From assembly GCF_021917145.1 (NCBI RefSeq), contig NC_061067.1, positions 2,679,224-2,743,223 on the forward strand: a stretch of 64,000 bases of DNA, written 5' to 3'. Both the position numbers and the translations under genes were made by a program. A model generated the notes under the pieces. It worked only from the letters and a program-made list of their open reading frames with translations. It did not search any database and was not told the DNA's origin. Origin of the DNA: Hypomesus transpacificus. Taxonomy: Eukaryota > Chordata > Actinopteri > Osmeriformes > Osmeridae. Of the stretch, positions 46,985-62,163 are shown one piece after another; position 1 is the first letter of the stretch, and each line of letters begins with the position of its first letter.

Positions 46985-49956
46985 TCACAGTTTACGCTTA
47001 TCCATTTTTGTTTGATACACACATTTCCCATCGTTCTGAATGTAGCTGACCGTCATCTCCGTCTCTGTGACTTCAAAGAAAGCGAATCCTCCAGACGTTT
47101 GATTGACAGCGCTGGAGAACCGTTGCCAGGACAACGGGATGCTCCGTTGGTGGGAGGAGTCATGGTCGTCGAAATTCCCGCTCCCGCTGACCACGTAGGA
47201 ACTCCCATCATCCTCTCTGATAAACTGATGCAACAGTCTGAATCAACTTTACTGGTCAGGGATATGTACACACACGAGGAATCTGACTCAGGTTTTTACA
47301 CTGCTTTCAAAGTACTCCCAAAGAAGTAGACATAAAACTAAAAAAACAAGGGCAACTAGGTTGAGCAAATAAAGGTAAAAACGACAAGCAAATTCAGGTT
47401 ATCGAAAGCATAACGTCAACAGAGATGAACTCAGATGAACCGTACATGCTGTAAGCTCGTATTCCCTTGACAAGATGAAGAAGATGACGAGACGGTGTTA
47501 GGATGTCTTCCTCCTGCTCACCTGGATGTCGTGGTCGTGTCCGCACAGGTACACTGTCACAGCGTACTTCTTCAGCAGCGGTCTCAGCCGGTCCACGAGG
47601 CACGCTGTGGGGCCGTGGTGACCGATGGACCAGATGGGATAGTGCCCTGCCACCACCACGAACTCTGACCTGTGGGAGGGGGGGGCAGAGCTAGGAGGAT
47701 GTTTCTGTAGGCACCGCGGTGAAGCGATGAGGGGTTTCGAATGTTTTTGTTTTGCATTTGTCATGCTCCATTGGACGGTTTGAAGTGAAGTGTGACAGGA
47801 AAGGCAGGGAGAGAGAGACCGAGAGGAGAAGGCAGCAGCAAAAGGTCCAAGCTAGATTCGAACCCAGGCCTTGATTCGATGACAACATGTCTTATTTGGC
47901 GTTATACGGAATTTGTTTTAACCATGAACCCAGAACAGGTCCAAAAGTCGCTATCAACCCAAAGTCGGGTTTGAAGTGCGGAGATACATAGTCAGACCAA
48001 CCTAGATAAACACTGTCAAAAATCTGGATTTTCACATTGACCGGTGTGAGGGAGTGAGCCAACATAATCACGTGGCAGGAATGTGTGTTGGTAGCCTATC
48101 GAAGGACAGCTCAGCACTAGATACTTCAGACTGGAGGAGTGAGAGAGGGGAGAGAGGCTTTCTGAGAACAAGGCCTACTGTTATTACATTCCTGTTCTAA
48201 GGCCAGGACAATAAGCAGGTCACTTACTCCTTATGGGATCTTCAATCATCCGTATTTACACACGCCCTAATTGGCTTGTTTTTTCAACTTTGCCAAAAGG
48301 GAGGCTTTGTGGAGCACGACTGTTGGCAGTGGCTTGTATTGCACGATACGGGAACTCAACTCACCCCATTTCTGCAGATAACATTTGGGACGGAACACAA
48401 ATTTCGTCCACGCGGCTCTGACGCGTGGGAAATCACGTCTACGTTTGATCTCCAATGCCAAACGTGGGTGAGTTATCTCAAAAACACAACCGAGAGCCCT
48501 GTATCGTACTTGCTGTTGGCCAGTCGAGAGTTGATCCAGCTAAACTGCAGGTCGGCAGCGTGGGGGTCCTGGCTGCCCCTGGGGTGGAGGCGGTCGTAGG
48601 TGTTCCCACACAGCACCACCGTGTCTATCATCAGGACCGTCACCGACACGTTCGTGTGGGGAACCTGGAAGTTCAGCTCGTAGTACAGCTCTGGGTAATT
48701 CCTGCAGAGTTCCACACAATCATCATTGCAAGGGTTAGTGGGAATATGATCCTGTGTCAAATCAATCGATAAAATATGAACGTTCTTATAGATATCACTT
48801 GAACTACATATATACATATTTAAAAACAATTTCACTGGAAGAATTCCAAGCAGGGAGCCCACCATCTCTCTGATCGGTTGGAATAGGCGATTTGGGCGTA
48901 CACGTTTCCACGGTGATCGTGGTTCCCCGCCACGAGGTACCAGGGGATGCCCCGCAGGGAGGGCAGGGAGAACACGTTCTCAAAGGTGTGCTGCAAGACA
49001 GACAAACACACGACATCTAAACGAACACGACAGACATGGATGCAGGTTGCTGCTGCTGACTCGTGCATCAGGCTTCATGTTTACACCTGCTACGAGAGGC
49101 CACTAGAGGGCCCCTGCCTCACTCTTCAGACAGGAAGCCCGCACAAAATGTTATTCGGAGGTAAGAAGCAGTCATTGAGCCGCAGTACTGGGTTCCCTAT
49201 TCTCCATCAGTTCCCCTTAAATGCCCAATCGAAACCCATGACAGATACGGTTATTGCTCTGAGCGGCAAGAAAGAAGGAAGTGACAGTTTAAAACAACGG
49301 TGGCAACACACCTTCTACCAACCGTGTCATAAAACCAGACACCTCAACCCTCTCTCCTCACAGCTAACTCTGTGCATGAATCACAATGGGACATGTTGGT
49401 GTGCTGTGTTAACCCCGCAACGCAGACGGTGTGTTCAGACTGTGAACTGGCCTTGAAGCGATGGTCATCCACGCTTTTCACCCCGTCGAAGTAGAAGTGG
49501 TCTCCCAGGCTGAGGATCAGGTCGAGGCCCGTGGTCTGGGCCACCGCCCCCACACTGGCGGCGATGGCGCTCTCGTGAGGGGTGTGGTAGGGGGGCAGGG
49601 GGATGCCGCCCCAGTCCCCCAGGCCCACGAAGCGCAGGGCGGCTGTGGAGAGGTGGAACACAACCACGCTTAAACACAAACACGAAACAACCATGCTTAG
49701 CCCCAAACCCACTGCACAGACATAACCCGCTCCTTCTCCCATCCACCCTCTCTCTCTCTCTGGTGGCACCTGGGCTGGCCTGACTGCATATCGGATGACG
49801 GTACACGATATTCTGAATTCAAGTCGCCATGGTGAAAGCATTTCCAAAGCAATCGGGGCGATACCTTGAGGAATTGCAACAGACTGTACCTTGCTCGGAG
49901 GAGTGACTCAGCGGCCATATGCAGGTGAGCAACAGCAGCAGGTGCTGTCCAGCCAT
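46985..49956 (-). CDS. acp5: acp5-like tartrate-resistant acid phosphatase (6 exons)
   Basis: TRAP (purple acid phosphatase, type 5) is a secreted or lysosomal di-metal phosphatase best known from osteoclasts and macrophages. Minus-strand exons: 49956-49890, 49642-49452, 48990-48863, 48701-48510, 47669-47522 and 47224-46985; joined product 321 aa (human 325 as I recall). Seen: signal peptide ([19 protein letters not shown]); the five metallophosphatase motifs in order: GDWGG (D32), GDHFY (D70, Y73), GNHDH (N109, H110), [10 protein letters not shown] and YLCGHDHD; also [19 protein letters not shown] and, at the end, [19 protein letters not shown]. All metal-binding positions are present. Oddity: intron 2 must use a GC donor (AAG then gccagt at 49451); every GT alternative I tried breaks the frame, while GC-AG restores it exactly. 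Paralogue identity (acp5a or acp5b) is not resolved. A MITE lies immediately downstream. Confidence 0.92.
47793..47870 (-). repeat. tRNA-SINE fragment in acp5-like intron 4
   Basis: The plus strand reads TGACAGGAAAGGCAGGGAGA, a GA-rich block, GGCAGCAGCAAAAGG, then AGATTCGAACCCAGG. Reversed, this is a B box (CCTGGGTTCGAATCT), the CTTTTGCTGC motif and the CTTTCCTGTCA end of the family at 8960-9165. Confidence 0.55.
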
Positions 49957-56400: not shown

Positions 56401-59400
56401 ATGCAGCAAGATAACGACCCAAAACACACTGCCAAAACAACAAAGGAGTTCATCAGGGGCAAGAAATGGAAGGTATTAGACTGGCCAAGTCAATCTCCAG
56501 ACTTAAACCCTATAGAGCATGCATTTTACCTGCTTAAGAGGAGACTGAAGGGAGGAACCCCACAAAACAAACAACAACTGAAAGAGGCTGCAGTGAAAGC
56601 CTGGGAAAGCATCAAAAAGGAAGAATGCAAAAGTTTGGTGACGTCAATGGGTCACAGACTTGCTGCAGTTATTGAAAGCAAAGGATTTGCAACTAAATAT
56701 TAAGTCTTATTCACTTAAATATGTTTTAAGTATATCTGTTCCAATACTTTTGATCACATGACAAATGGGTGGATTCAAACAAAATGTGATATTTTCTTAG
56801 TTGTGCATCAGATCCTGATGTAAATACCTGGAAATAAAAGCTGAAACGTTGATCTCTGGTCTCACGTTCATTATTTGATGTCAAGCCCAAATGTTTTCAG
56901 TCTACAGCAAAAATAAAGGAATTCGCCTCACTGTTCCAATACTTTTGGAGGGCACTGTATATACAACTGATATACTAGATTTACACCATTCATATTTCCA
57001 TGTGCATTATTTGTACTTTGCTTTGGATAAAAGATTCTGCTGAATGAATGTAAATGTGATAATTGGAGCAGAGGTGGTACCCTGAGAGGCGGGACATCTC
57101 ACGGCCGGCCAATACGATCCTCCCAAGAGCCTGTGACATCCTGAGCAGCATCCTGCCGCTCTGGTAGTAGTCCTACAGAGCAGACACACACAGGTTATCT
57201 CTGGTAGTAGTCCTACAGAGCACACACACAGGTTATCTCTGGTAGTAGTCCTACAGAGCAGACACACACAGGTTATCTCTGGTAGTAGTCCTACAGAGCA
57301 GACACACACACACACAGGTTGTCTCTAGTGGTCTCACCTCCAGGAGCTCCGAGTGTGTGCTGGTCAGGTGGCGGGTGTCGGAGGGGTTGAGGAAGGGCCG
57401 GCTCACCACCAGGTAACCCACCACTGTGGCCAGGTCTGGGGGTGAGGGGGCAAAGGTCAGCACACCGACTCAGCAATGGGGGGCGGGGGGGGGGGGGGGG
57501 GGGGGGGGGTGGAGTTGATAGAATGATGAAGCTGAGAACTTAAGGAAATGATGCCCCGTCTTCACAGCGTGGCACAGTAAGATTCTCTACAATTACAGCA
57601 TTTTTCTATTACAGTACAATTCAGCTGTTGACCCCCCCCCACAAACAGTCCCATAATGACACATGCAGTCTGTTAACCTTATGACGCCACGCACCCCTCC
57701 ACACACACACACTTACACTTGGCGATCAAACTGTCCACAAAGCCCATGGAGAAACGGAAGAAGATGAAGTTGTGCAGGTGGTCGACCTGGGGAGGAGGAA
57801 CAGGTGAGCTTCCAGACATCGCTCCCCGCCCGTAATGACAACACCCACACGTTCAGGCCCTCCTCTGCCACCGAGTGTTCCCCACCACATTTGAAAATGG
57901 ACGCACCAGTTTGTTGAATGTCGCGTGAATGGTCTGTTTCTCCCTCAAGTTGCCATTGTAGAAGGCGATCTCTTCACTGAAACGAAACAAACATGTTTAT
58001 TTGACACAACCCAACTGTGTTTTGCTTTGTGCTATTTCCCCCCCCCCCCCTCTACCCCTGTGACAGTCACTGTGTAGAGATGGTTACCTGTTGGTGATGA
58101 GGCGGGAGTTGACGTATCGGTACTCCCCCTCAAAGCGCTGCTCGGTGACGGTCATCTTCCCAATGGGCCTCCTCAGTCTGGTCAGGAACAGGCCTGAGAC
58201 CAGCAGGTAGGCCATCATGCTGGCTGGGCCCTGAGGGGTCAGAGCGTGTTATTGCCAAACACACAAGTGTATGTTCAGTGTTTCCCATTCATTGGCTTAA
58301 CCGGGGCATCCCACCTAATTTGTCCTGCCATTGTTTCATAACGTTTAAAAATGAAAGTATTGATACACTTCTCATTCCCTAAAATAGCTCAATGTTGGGT
58401 TTGTCGCCGTTGCTTCAGCAAAGCATCTCTCACTCCCACTGACAACTGGGGTTGAGTGACTACTCATCCACATCTCCACTGGCACTGCGCTTGCACGCTC
58501 ACTCAGTCAGTCACGTGTTATTTTCTGTGTTCTTTTTGTCACAATGAACAACCTGAGATAATATGGAGATGTCTGCTCTTTTCTAGCAAACATCTCTAAT
58601 TTTACCACCACATCCCTGCTCACACATACATACTGGAATGTTCCGGGTGTCACACTGAGGTATGGGAAGTTACACTGACCTGCGCACCGATGGCACTAGT
58701 TAGCTTGAAGATGTACAGGCCGATATCCAGGAGGGGCTGAAGAAGAAGGAAACAGAGAGCGTGTGATTAGGATCGTGTGTGGTCCATGGTGGAAAAACAG
58801 CTTGCTCTTAACAAATGATGGAGTTGGCTGCATTTCTTTGATTCATTTTGGCAGATGCTTTGATCCAAAGCGACATCCAAATGGTGTGTATAGTACCACC
58901 AAGATGAAGACCCAGCAGTTCTGAGGGTAATTCAGGTCTACCTTGGAGAGGTTGGAGTACAGGTCCACCACACTGTTGCAGAACTTCTCCACATCCTGCG
59001 TGAGAAGCTGGTCAGCGTTGGCTATGCGGTTATCCAAGTTGCCCATCTTGTAATACGTGTAGCCCCTAAAGCAGTGACAGCCAAATACTCCATTAAAGAC
59101 TTGAAATACAGCGAATCCTGTAAAAAGGGATATCGTGTCAAATCCCCTCATGGTACTTTAAAGACAGCATGTTCTCCAGGCGGTGGTGTGGAGGCGGGGC
59201 TTACTTGAGGTACTCGTCATACAGGTGCTTGGTGAGCTTCTCTCGAAACCTGAGCTTTAGCTTGTTCAGACCCAGCTTCAGGAAGTTGTTCACCAGGGCA
59301 ATCTGTCACACAAACAAGCACCCCATGGCTCCTAATCCCAATATATGTCTCCTGAATACCGTTTTCAAAACGTCTTGTGATCAAATCTGGATGTGTGGCC

Positions 59401-62163
59401 GTGCAACTGAATTTCATCTGCGCATTTGTTGCCAAGGTTGCCATGCAGAGCAACCAGTGAAATGGAGCATGCAGCAATAAAACTATTCAGCAGAAAAGGT
59501 GTAACTACAAGCTTTTTATATCAAACCGACATGTTCCATGGACAGTTTAGTGTAGCCTTTATCTAACACTATTCAGTAATCATGCAGTTATTTTATTAGC
59601 TTAGCGAAAAATGATGTGTTGAACCGTTATAAATGTATTAGTATCAATATTATGGTGTAAATATCAGGCCCCCTCTGATAATATATATATATAAGAAATG
59701 ACAGCCAGTATACATGGCTTCAGTAGCACATCCTACCAAACGACCACAAGACTTCCCACTGTCTGAAGAGAATTAACTCTGAATCAGCAACTCATAAACG
59801 ACTGATGCGATTGGACAAAATGGATAAAAAAAACACACTTACAAGTGGCATGAATTTGATAAAGCTGAACAAGCAGGTCTTGAAATCTGTAGTGGAGCGG
59901 CCGATAATTGCACTGCAAACCACAACATACACAGGTATGAGCCGGGGCGTCTGGCTCAGACGGCCAGGAGATCAGCGGATCCTTGTGACCTGGAGTTCAT
60001 GCGGGGGAGGGGAACCTGGATCCTAGAGATACCTGATACCGAGTGCTCTCTTCATATAGGACATAGCAGCAGAGGAGCTCTGATGTGTTTATTATTATTA
60101 TTATTATTATTATTATGATGGTGTCATGACTGGCTTGTTTACTATAGACTGGAGCTACAGGAAGGCCCCTGACGCTCACAGTCCCGCCATATTGGTCAGC
60201 GTGCAGTTTGTAACACGTTATTATTCTTTGTACGTGTAAGAACCAGCTTGTTCACTACAGACTGGAGCTACAGGAGGCCCACCGGCACTCACAGCCCCAC
60301 CGTGTTGGTCAGTGTGCAGTGTGTAAGCGTTATGGATTTAGACATGTGACGACACAGTTATGGATTCCACTTCTACAAAAACCAGGTGACGGACAGTTAC
60401 CCCAGGTATGGCAGCAATGTAGAAATAAAAGTGCTTCTTGAATAAATTGATATCTCTGCCTATGATACCACTGTGGAAAATTGAAACAAAATATCAATAC
60501 TGGAGTGGGTTTAGGTACATACATTGAAAATGGGATGCTCTAAAGATTCTAATGGCGTCATCTTTCCAACATTAAAGCCACGGTGTGCCAACATTTCAGC
60601 GCTAGGGACAAGGTCCAGGATGGTAGAGTCTGCCTTTAAGATATTCATCAAAGCCACTAAAACGTTCCACTCACAGGGCATCAAACAACAACATGGATCC
60701 AGGGTCATTTCACTGTCACCACCGTAATCAGGCCACACAGTCAAAACACAAGCAGCATTCACAGACCTTTCTATCATGGTGCCATTCTGGATCATCCACA
60801 CGTCGCAGTAGGTTCTGGTGACCAGCATGGCGGCAATGAGCAACAGGTACCCGGTCTGTAAAGAGGACAACCAGGATAACAGAGTTAGCACAGCAGGCTA
60901 GTTCTTATGGCTTTAATGGAAATAATACCCAAGACAGCAACACGAAACACATCAGTTCAAAAGTGTTAAAGTGCATTTCAACAGCAAATCCATTCGAATG
61001 GATTTGTGAATAATTGTATTGGTCTGTTCAGGTCCATGTACTGAGATTAGGCAGGACTTAAAAGTGTAAACTGTAAAGTGAAGCAACAAAGGCTGTATGA
61101 ACTCTAGACTACTAGCACCACAGGCCCTGTTGCGTTTTATCAGTGAAGCTAATTACTTCAAGGTTCAAATTCATCATGACGCAACACCGGAAAATTGAGC
61201 CAAGTCTCAACCTGGGCATGTCAAGGACCTCCACATGGATGCACACAGTGGTTCAGACTTCAATTTGAAAATGCAACCTTGTTCTTGTCAATTTTATAAA
61301 ATCATATGAAAATATATAGGTTTATTCATTTTTCGTGTTAAGGGAAACAATATTGTTTGTCTAATGCGACCAGACCAACCTCTTTGCAGAAAAACCGTGG
61401 CACCATAATCCGCAAAATACGAAAGATTCTGAGGACGAAGTCTTTATCCACCGCGGCGCGGTCTTTCTTGCTGTCTTTCTACAAAACCAAATACATTCTC
61501 TGAAATGGAGTTTTGTGACAGCTGACAGTGGTTGTGTATTAGAAACTTGATTTGAACACTTACTTCATTGTTCAACAATACTTCGGAGCTTCCCTTTTTA
61601 CTGTAAACAAACAAATAACTTTAGTGGATATTAGTGTCAGCTATACAGTTGCATGCATTGAGGAATAGCCAAATCATCTGTGCATTCATGAACAAATAAC
61701 AGCCAATAATACTGTTCTTGCAACAAATGTACGTAGGCTAACTAATCTAGCATTTGCACGATTAAACCCTGTAACCCGTTTATAAAGACTTTCATTGTTA
61801 GAAGATAATAGAATAGGCGTCACACCAGTAATTCACGTACAGTACATGCCAATACGAACCGACAAACTACCTTAACGCAGTAGAGTTGGAAACTTAGAAA
61901 ATCACCCCCTGTTCTATATTGCAATGTTAGACCTAGTTGGCTGTCGCCCAAGGCAATTTTCTAACGAGGGTGTCAGACACTTGGCTGGGGCCAGTTAACC
62001 TGCTACATCACAGCCAACAGCTAAACGAATCACAGTTTTGATCTGCGTCTTACCCTTTTAACTTGGCCGCTCGTCTTCTTTGCTTCAATATGTATAAAAC
62101 TAGAAGGACACCGCCAGCTATGGAGGAGTTTTTAGCTGTCAGGTATTTACTGACGGCCGCCAT
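52360..62163 (-). CDS. abcd3: abcd3: peroxisomal ABC half-transporter PMP70 (23 exons per transcript)
   Basis: ABCD3 imports long- and branched-chain acyl-CoAs and bile-acid precursors into peroxisomes as a dimer of half-transporters. Minus-strand exons: 62163-62054, 61600-61564, 61478-61380, 60855-60767, exon 5 (60470-60401 or 59912-59843), 59302-59205, 59065-58942, 58736-58680, 58230-58088, 57976-57907, 57786-57717, 57435-57338, 57172-57081, 55231-55140, 55013-54938, 54804-54741, 54282-54205, 53846-53781, 53619-53530, 53430-53311, 52993-52889, 52664-52608 and 52437-52360. The joined frame is 660 aa (human 659 as I recall). Seen: [17 protein letters not shown] peroxisomal-targeting N-terminus; membrane helices from about 84 to 340; EAA-like [16 protein letters not shown]; Walker A GPNGCGKS (474-481); Q-loop FYVPQ; signature LSGGEKQRM (572-580); Walker B FAILDE (592-597); H-loop SHR (H626); C-terminus TVEFGS. 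Introns carry a SINE (16), a Tc1-like element (13) and a MITE (17). Confidence 0.97.
52796..52858. repeat. Short minisatellite in abcd3 intron 21
   Basis: A 21 bp unit, CTGAGACACAGAGTGAGTAC-like, is repeated about three and a half times with near identity (ACTACTGAGACACAGAGTGA recurs). It lies between exons 21 and 22. Confidence 0.85.
53434..53463 (-). repeat. (TG)15 tract abutting the abcd3 exon 20 acceptor
   Basis: On the transcribed strand the 3' end of intron 19 is a pure TG repeat of about 15 units, followed directly by CAG and exon 20 ([10 protein letters not shown], with the LSGGE motif). There is almost no conventional pyrimidine tract. UG repeats at this position bind splicing regulators in other genes (TDP-43 and CELF proteins at CFTR exon 9). 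Confidence 0.9.
53943..54121. mobile_element. Tc1/mariner-like MITE in abcd3 intron 17
   Basis: The left end GTACTGTACAAAAGTCTTAG and the right end (reversed) CACAGCACTGTGCAGAAGTC are diverged versions of the fish repeat ACTGTGCAAAAGTCTTAGGC. The ~180 bp interior is AT-rich and non-coding. Same family as 46719-46932. Confidence 0.65.
54460..54656 (-). repeat. Full-length tRNA-derived SINE in abcd3 intron 16
   Basis: On the minus strand it starts GGGAGTCAGATGGCTGAGCG (A box TGGCTGAGCGG), has GGTTGCCGGATCGATTCCCC (B box GGATCGATTCC), a body with TTGTGTCCTTGGGCAAGGCA, and a tail GGATAAGAGCGTCTGCCAAA followed by AAATGTAAATGTAA. Head, body and tail are all present over about 195 bp. It lies in the same orientation as abcd3. 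Tail fragments related to it occur at about 57018-57058, 58846-58890 and 63900-63990. Confidence 0.8.
55295..56959 (+). mobile_element. Tc1-like DNA transposon, complete, IR/DR type
   Basis: The 1661 bp element (55297-56957) is flanked by TA dinucleotides (55295-55296 and 56958-56959), the Tc1/mariner target duplication. Terminal inverted repeats of about 224 bp start CAGTGCCCTCCAAAAGTATT. Each repeat has an outer and an inner copy of AAAAGTATTGGAACA, the IR/DR arrangement of Sleeping Beauty-like elements. The two repeats differ at roughly 15 positions by eye. It lies in abcd3 intron 13, antisense to the gene, about 65 bp upstream of the exon 14 acceptor. It carries one intact transposase frame. 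Confidence 0.97.
55666..56703 (+). CDS. Tc1-like DD34E transposase, intact
   Basis: The transposase cuts and pastes its own element by binding the terminal repeats and catalysing DNA cleavage and strand transfer in the nucleus. The frame is uninterrupted and gives 345 aa from the ATG at 55666, the usual length for the family. An in-frame ATG at 55630 would add 12 residues but is less likely because Tc1-type proteins begin MKT followed by LS/EL. Seen: a paired-like DNA-binding region with two helix-turn-helix parts ([20 protein letters not shown] and a second near residues 70-110) joined by an AT-hook-like linker RRTGRPRKT; the catalytic triad in [20 protein letters not shown] and SPDLNPIEH, with exactly 34 residues between the second D and the E; and the glycine-rich box [13 protein letters not shown]. 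No stop or frameshift is present, so activity cannot be excluded. Confidence 0.96.
   Translation: MKTRALSLGEKQAIVSLREDGKSIRAIAETLAIASTTIWNVLKKKKTTGVLSNRRRTGRPRKTSAVDDRNIVRAVKKDPKTTVSEISNNLQMAGVKVSLSTVRRRLHEQKYKGYTRRCKPLISKKNRKARLEFAKKYRDEPQKFWDKVLWTDETKINFYQSDGKAKVWRKKGTAHDPKHTSSSVKHGGGNVMAWACMASSGTGSLIFIEDVTHDGSSKMNSEVYRNILSANLRKDATKLIGRAFIMQQDNDPKHTAKTTKEFIRGKKWKVLDWPSQSPDLNPIEHAFYLLKRRLKGGTPQNKQQLKEAAVKAWESIKKEECKSLVTSMGHRLAAVIESKGFATKY
57018..57058 (+). repeat. SINE tail fragment in abcd3 intron 13
   Basis: The sequence CTTTGGATAAAAGATTCTGC followed by TGAATGAATGTAAATG is the 3' tail shared by several fish SINEs. No tRNA-like head is attached. It lies about 20 bp downstream of the exon 13 donor. 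Confidence 0.6.
57161..57310 (-). repeat. Tandem repeat containing copies of the abcd3 exon 13 acceptor
   Basis: A unit of about 40 bp is repeated four times, with CTGGTAGTAGTCCTACAGAG beginning at 57161, 57201, 57239 and 57279. On the gene strand each unit reads CTCTGTAG then GACTACTACCAG, i.e. the splice acceptor and first four codons (DYYQ) of exon 13. Only the copy at 57161-57180 continues into the real exon; the three others continue AGATAACCTGTGTGTG and hit a stop after DYYQR. Confidence 0.9.
57478..57509. repeat. G-run (about 30 bp) in abcd3 intron 11
   Basis: A nearly pure G homopolymer on the plus strand (C on the gene strand), about 45 bp upstream of the exon 12 acceptor. It is a candidate quadruplex and a likely sequencing-error hotspot. 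Confidence 0.9.
58846..58890 (-). repeat. SINE tail fragment next to the abcd3 exon 7 donor
   Basis: The plus strand TTTTGGCAGATGCTTTGATC followed by CAAAGCGACATCCAAATGG is the reversed CTTTGGATCAAAGCATCTGC tail. It lies about 50 bp from the exon 7 donor at 58941. Confidence 0.6.
59843..59912 (-). CDS. abcd3: abcd3 exon 5b, alternative to exon 5a
   Basis: A 70 nt exon with acceptor GGTTTGCAG and donor CTT then gtaagt (a consensus donor). It completes the split serine codon from exon 4 and encodes 23 residues beginning [13 protein letters not shown] and ending FIKFMPL, ending in phase 0 so it joins exon 6 (IALVNNFLK). It aligns with human residues about 113-135 (GIIGRSRKDFKRY...MPL as I recall), sharing IIGRS, DFK and MPL. 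Exon 5a encodes a different version of the same segment. This is the copy nearer exon 6. Confidence 0.85.
60088..60119. repeat. (TTA)n microsatellite between abcd3 exons 5a and 5b
   Basis: About ten TTA/ATT trinucleotide repeats, in the intron separating the two alternative exons. Confidence 0.9.
60133..60330. repeat. Diverged 113 bp tandem repeat between abcd3 exons 5a and 5b
   Basis: Copy A (from 60133) and copy B (from 60246) share GCTTGTTTACTATAGACTGG / GCTTGTTCACTACAGACTGG, AGCTACAGGA, CTCACAG, CCGCCATATTGGTCAGCGTG / CCACCGTGTTGGTCAGTGTG and GTGTAA blocks. The period is 113 bp, with scattered substitutions. No open frame with splice signals spans it. Confidence 0.75.
60401..60470 (-). 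CDS. abcd3: abcd3 exon 5a, alternative to exon 5b
   Basis: A 70 nt exon with acceptor CAATTTTCCACAG (good pyrimidine tract) and donor GGG then gtaact. Like 5b it completes the serine codon of exon 4, encodes 23 residues (beginning [13 protein letters not shown] and ending YIAAIPG) and ends in phase 0. It shares GIIGR, FK and IAA-P with human ABCD3 as I recall it. Compared with 5b, 8 of 23 residues are identical (I, I, G, R, F, K, I, P). Including both or neither shifts the frame of exon 6, so the pair is expected to be mutually exclusive. It is the copy nearer exon 4. Confidence 0.8.

Follow-up and report, generated by a model that had tools for sequence, protein, structure and literature searches.

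Two homologous, probably mutually exclusive versions of exon 5 in abcd3, the smelt gene for a peroxisomal ABC half-transporter

Does abcd3, the gene for the peroxisomal ABC half-transporter ABCD3 (PMP70), specify one membrane protein or two? The question is raised by a stretch of 64,000 nucleotides (nt) from the smelt Hypomesus transpacificus (contig NC_061067.1, positions 2,679,224 to 2,743,223), which is the window analyzed here. From the letters of this window the original prediction had placed 2 exons of equal length, 5a and 5b, at the same point of abcd3, and had read them as likely mutually exclusive. Comparison with a second smelt gene copy and with vertebrate relatives supports this reading: very probably, 5a and 5b form a mutually exclusive pair that arose by tandem exon duplication in abcd3 before the split of ray-finned and lobe-finned fishes. 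The coordinates, the 70-nt lengths and the phases that had been proposed for the 2 exons proved exact on the minus strand, and the gene is laid out as follows (positions are those of the window).

62163-52360, minus strand: whole coding region of abcd3 (abcd3a), counted as 23 exons with a single version of exon 5 included, encoding 660 amino acids
60855-60767, minus strand: exon 4, constant, ending within the codon of S112
60470-60401, minus strand: exon 5a, 70 nt, encoding a 23-residue segment plus the shared first serine, placed in the conserved 5a clade
59913-60400, minus strand: intron between 5a and 5b, 488 nt
59912-59843, minus strand: exon 5b, 70 nt, encoding a 23-residue segment plus the shared first serine
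59302-59205, minus strand: exon 6, constant

The 2 exons are adjacent, equal in length and identical in phase, each being preceded by AG and followed by GT, entered after two bases of a codon (AG/T, the slash marking the exon boundary) and left at the end of a codon. Their products share 8 of 23 residues, the same count as had been given before, or 9 of 24 when the common first serine is counted. Using 5a alone or 5b alone yields a complete protein of 660 amino acids, and using both jointly, or neither, leads to premature stop codons in exon 6, so the earlier claim that either of these combinations breaks the frame holds. The product of the 5b form is identical over all 660 residues to isoform X1 of H. 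transpacificus in RefSeq (P0106, an ABCD3a record), and the first 209 residues of this form find ABCD3 as their best match in PDB (E value 1.5e-94), which marks the product as a full-length half-transporter nearest to human ABCD3. The splice sites had also been called good, which was slightly generous, because the 5a donor (GGG/gtaact) is only moderate and has its +5 base off consensus; its score of 1.2 nevertheless lies within the range of the other donors of the gene (−2.9 to 6.0 by a rough scoring matrix).

The likelihood of finding such exons by chance was assessed on all open 70-nt stretches of the same phase that lie between AG and GT anywhere in the window, both strands included (n = 176). 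Each was scored with the BLOSUM62 matrix against human exon 5, the sequence of which was taken from the PDB alignment and agrees with that in record P0193 of Homo sapiens. Exon 5b scored 67 and exon 5a 52, with the third-best stretch reaching 8; the mean of the 174 stretches other than 5a and 5b was −21.8 (standard deviation 10.6). The resemblance of both exons to human exon 5 therefore exceeds chance.

The smelt genome contains a second copy of the gene, abcd3b, located as follows.

Contig C10, 12,895,143-12,904,898: abcd3b, exon matches spread over residues 1 to 660, with gaps

This copy retains 5a and 5b, each 70 nt long, with their order unchanged and 463 nt between them, and its donors (GGG/gtaaac for 5a, TTT/gtaagt for 5b) show the same contrast as those of abcd3a. 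Between the 2 genes, segments of like type are identical at 18/24 and 16/24 residues and segments of unlike type at 9–10/24. Because like-type identity exceeds cross-type identity, the exon duplication predates the gene duplication. Nonsynonymous over synonymous divergence (dN/dS) between abcd3a and abcd3b was 0.16/0.93 for 5a and 0.17/1.11 for 5b (ratios of about 0.15–0.17), and 0.10/2.46, 0.14/0.72 and 0.06/1.02 for the constant exons 4, 6 and 7, respectively; by these values, each of them rough with approximately 15 synonymous sites per exon, 5a and 5b are constrained about as strongly as exon 6 and less strongly than exons 4 and 7. At 2 ABCD1/2-like loci of the smelt, the corresponding region lies in a single open frame of 327 amino acids (L004, contig C7, query residues 55–285) or is split within the swapped stretch itself (L005, contig C18).

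Relatives of the 2 segments were collected by protein searches with the 5a region, the coelacanth 5a isoform and the dog 5a form, which returned 741, 669 and 175 proteins, respectively, and the best 120 of each search were used. From 198 protein identifiers 196 segments were obtained, omitting P0001 (a wrong-frame fragment) and P0175 (a 3b protein whose flank varies and whose segment looks 5b-like on inspection). Typing by a teleost-consensus score assigned 113 of the segments among the matches listed to type 5a (59 distinct) and 83 to type 5b (32 distinct), numbers that are shaped by the choice of queries and by the use of the best 120 matches per search. In a tree of 94 distinct segments of 24 residues each, 4 of them from the smelt genome, the 5a segments were split from the 5b segments with a support of 0.999. 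The 5a clade includes many teleosts, the gar (P0070), the coelacanth (P0109), the frogs Pelobates (P0169), Ascaphus (P0173), Pseudophryne (P0190) and Bombina (P0191), a caecilian (P0181), the goat (P0126–P0128) and the dog (P0129), the segments of the last 2 being the same over 24 residues. Residues I114, R117 and F122 are common to both forms, and others are conserved by type: Ser116 and Phe126 in 5a, and Gly116, Leu126 and Met133 in 5b. Phe126 is present in all 59 distinct 5a segments retrieved, from fish to dog. All 61 segments of the tree that carry it group together, Ser116 accompanying it in 56/61, and Gly116 accompanies Leu126 in 33/33.

Database records also bear on how the exons are used. 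Six isoform pairs of equal length from 5 species (Latimeria, Lepisosteus, Denticeps, Pseudorasbora with 2 pairs, and Aplochiton) differ solely within the segment, and the pairs of Myripristis and Scleropages differ in the segment and in further insertions or deletions. A scan over the whole length of the retrieved proteins found one copy only in 196 of 197, these being mostly predicted records and not counted transcripts. One record, P0028, is a 5a protein of 615 amino acids on a contig of 2,958 bases, whose source tag 'lgn' was taken to denote read assemblies. Because a gene that spans approximately 10 kb with its introns does not fit into 2,958 bases, this contig is probably an assembled transcript, and 5a is thus probably spliced into mRNA. 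RefSeq and UniProt records hold both forms already. The original prediction had named stops or lost splice sites of one copy in every related species as the mark of a dead duplicate. This is not what the records show: other species have annotated isoforms of each type, and the 6 pairs differ in this segment alone. Beyond what had been predicted, the pair is far older than the teleosts, is kept in both smelt gene copies and is listed by the RefSeq and UniProt pipelines.

Several observations weigh against an ancient mutually exclusive pair. Most isoform records are predictions of annotation pipelines, the tree rests on few sites because the segment has 24 residues, and the small number of synonymous sites makes each dN/dS value rough. 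The single exception among the 197 proteins, P0043, a model from Tachysurus ichikawai, contains both 5a and 5b joined by 8 extra residues, and is either a prediction artefact or a case of rare in-frame double inclusion. All 7 cartilaginous-fish records among the matches listed (P0147, P0166, P0168, P0170, P0171, P0183 and P0187) are of type 5b, and among the mammals listed 5a appears only in dog and goat, the others, including human and mouse, being of type 5b; the mammalian records are representatives of clusters with up to 701 members, each of which can hide other isoforms. Finally, the 5a segments of tetrapods and the coelacanth lie closest to the class boundary on the teleost-consensus score. 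This last point would fit independent tandem duplications of exon 5 in separate lineages that became alike by convergence. We consider such a history very improbable, since the Phe126 segments all group together with high support and the residues at positions 116 and 126 go together in the proportions given above.

The moderate 5a donor and the predicted nature of most records would also be expected if one copy were dead or decaying and prediction programs translated it because it is open. Against this stand the retention of both exons in both smelt gene copies with low dN/dS, the persistence of 5a residues such as Phe126 in every distinct 5a segment from fish to dog, and the transcript-sized contig behind P0028, which includes 5a; together they leave a dead copy hardly credible. 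We regard it as unlikely that both exons are used but that their alternation is noise or a mere switch between productive and unproductive transcripts, in which the 2 proteins are equivalent and the inclusion of both exons or of neither lowers abcd3 through decay. The stop codons in exon 6 and the similar mean hydropathy and charged-residue counts of the 2 segments agree with such a switch, but it would have no need of the clade-specific residues 116 and 126, which have stayed fixed or almost fixed across very long spans of evolution. An ancient, mutually exclusive pair is the reading that we prefer.

If 5a and 5b are such a pair, each mature mRNA would contain one of them, as the isoform records and the reading frame suggest, and transcripts with both or neither, which are out of frame, would be expected to undergo nonsense-mediated decay. 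Because both are conventional GT-AG exons with 488 nt between them, the choice between them is probably made by regulatory proteins and not by crowding or splice-site incompatibility, and the reading frame combined with regulated recognition would be the simplest account of the exclusion. Steric exclusion by crowding was considered and rejected: the introns from exon 4 to exon 6 measure 296, 488 and 540 nt, and the one between 5a and 5b is long enough for splicing. Incompatibility of U2 and U12 sites was rejected as well, both donors being plain GT and unlike the U12 consensus. Control by RBFOX proteins is retained as a lead only. The intron between 5b and 6 of abcd3a (59303-59842) contains 3 copies of UGCAUG, an RBFOX-like motif, a number reached in 31 of 3,000 shuffles; in abcd3b there is none in this intron, and one lies 17 nt before 5b. 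Comparing the introns of abcd3a and abcd3b gave 4 significant matches, which are exons 4, 5a, 5b and 6 with short edges (approximately 22 nt before 5b), and no other conspicuous intronic block.

What would the exchange do to the protein? The swapped stretch corresponds to residues 113–135 in human numbering and lies in sequence between Glu111 and Lys144, 2 residues of transmembrane helix 2 (TM2) that contact coenzyme A (CoA) in human ABCD3 (PMC11369193). Changing Glu111 to alanine lowers the substrate-stimulated ATPase activity, and ATP binding tilts TM2 away from the cavity (PMC11369193); in ABCD1, TM1-2 and TM4-6 bend, opening the peroxisomal exit (PMC9683791). Residues 113–135 are likely to be the portion of TM2 and its lead-in closest to the peroxisomal side, and 5a and 5b may give differing exit gates or CoA-entry surfaces. 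The most likely effect of the swap would be a tuned exit gate or acyl-CoA preference, dependent on tissue or stage, to which we give about an even chance.

ABCD3 carries branched-chain acyl-CoAs into peroxisomes, bile-acid intermediates have been suggested as further substrates, and severe liver disease is associated with dysfunction of the transporter (PMC11369193, PMC8919083). The basis of substrate choice in ABCD1-3 is described as a hypothesis awaiting more structures (PMC11369193). The 5 distinct ABCD3 sequences matched in PDB are all of one segment type, that of the 5b form, and so represent one of the 2 conserved forms only. A long-conserved natural swap of 23 residues between 2 CoA-contacting residues offers a ready-made experiment on this substrate choice. 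A wider proposal, which we put forward tentatively, is that ABCD3 of bony vertebrates, mammals included, is one gene for 2 transporters, in which the unstudied 5a form has a different TM2 entrance and with it a different acyl-CoA preference or gate. The choice between the forms would be regulated between tissues, and 5a would have been overlooked since surveys take lists of human genes as their starting point.

The abcd3 pair belongs to a known kind, the homologous mutually exclusive exons of vertebrates; its isoforms are annotated, and we found the switch described in none of the literature searched. In line with the original prediction, which knew of no case in ABCD3, the literature searched yielded no description of a mutually exclusive or duplicated exon in this gene, although the search reached few subscription papers and no supplementary tables, and a table could hold a mention. 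Three surveys of such vertebrate exons (Abascal et al. 2015, PMC4465641; Martinez-Gomez et al. 2022, PMC9741552; Hatje et al. 2017, PMC5740500) begin with human genes, unlike the abcd3 pair, which was found in smelt. In their main texts, the supplementary lists being outside the search, the word start 'ABC' occurs 0 times in PMC4465641 and 'ABCD' 0 times in PMC9741552 and PMC5740500. Like abcd3, SNAP25 has an ancient duplicated exon 5 and 2 mutually exclusive splice variants in vertebrates (PMC2581893). It is a different protein, whereas in ABCD3, a peroxisomal ABC half-transporter, the swap falls in the membrane domain. The SNAP25 exons are reportedly named 5a and 5b. Drosophila MRP has alternative exons 4 and 8. 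Like abcd3, it encodes an ABC transporter in alternative exon forms, and PMC6185855 names an '8a 4b isoform', but it is an insect protein of the ABCC family with the variation at another position, and we claim no homology of the event.

Two repeats lie in the intron between 5a and 5b: a pair of direct copies of 93 nt (60121-60326), 80% identical and with their starts 113 nt apart, and a TTA microsatellite of 9.3 copies (60089-60116). The intron comparison gave no significant match of the 93-nt copies of abcd3a in abcd3b. After abcd3, minus-strand open frames at 47000-49900 resemble a tartrate-resistant acid phosphatase gene.

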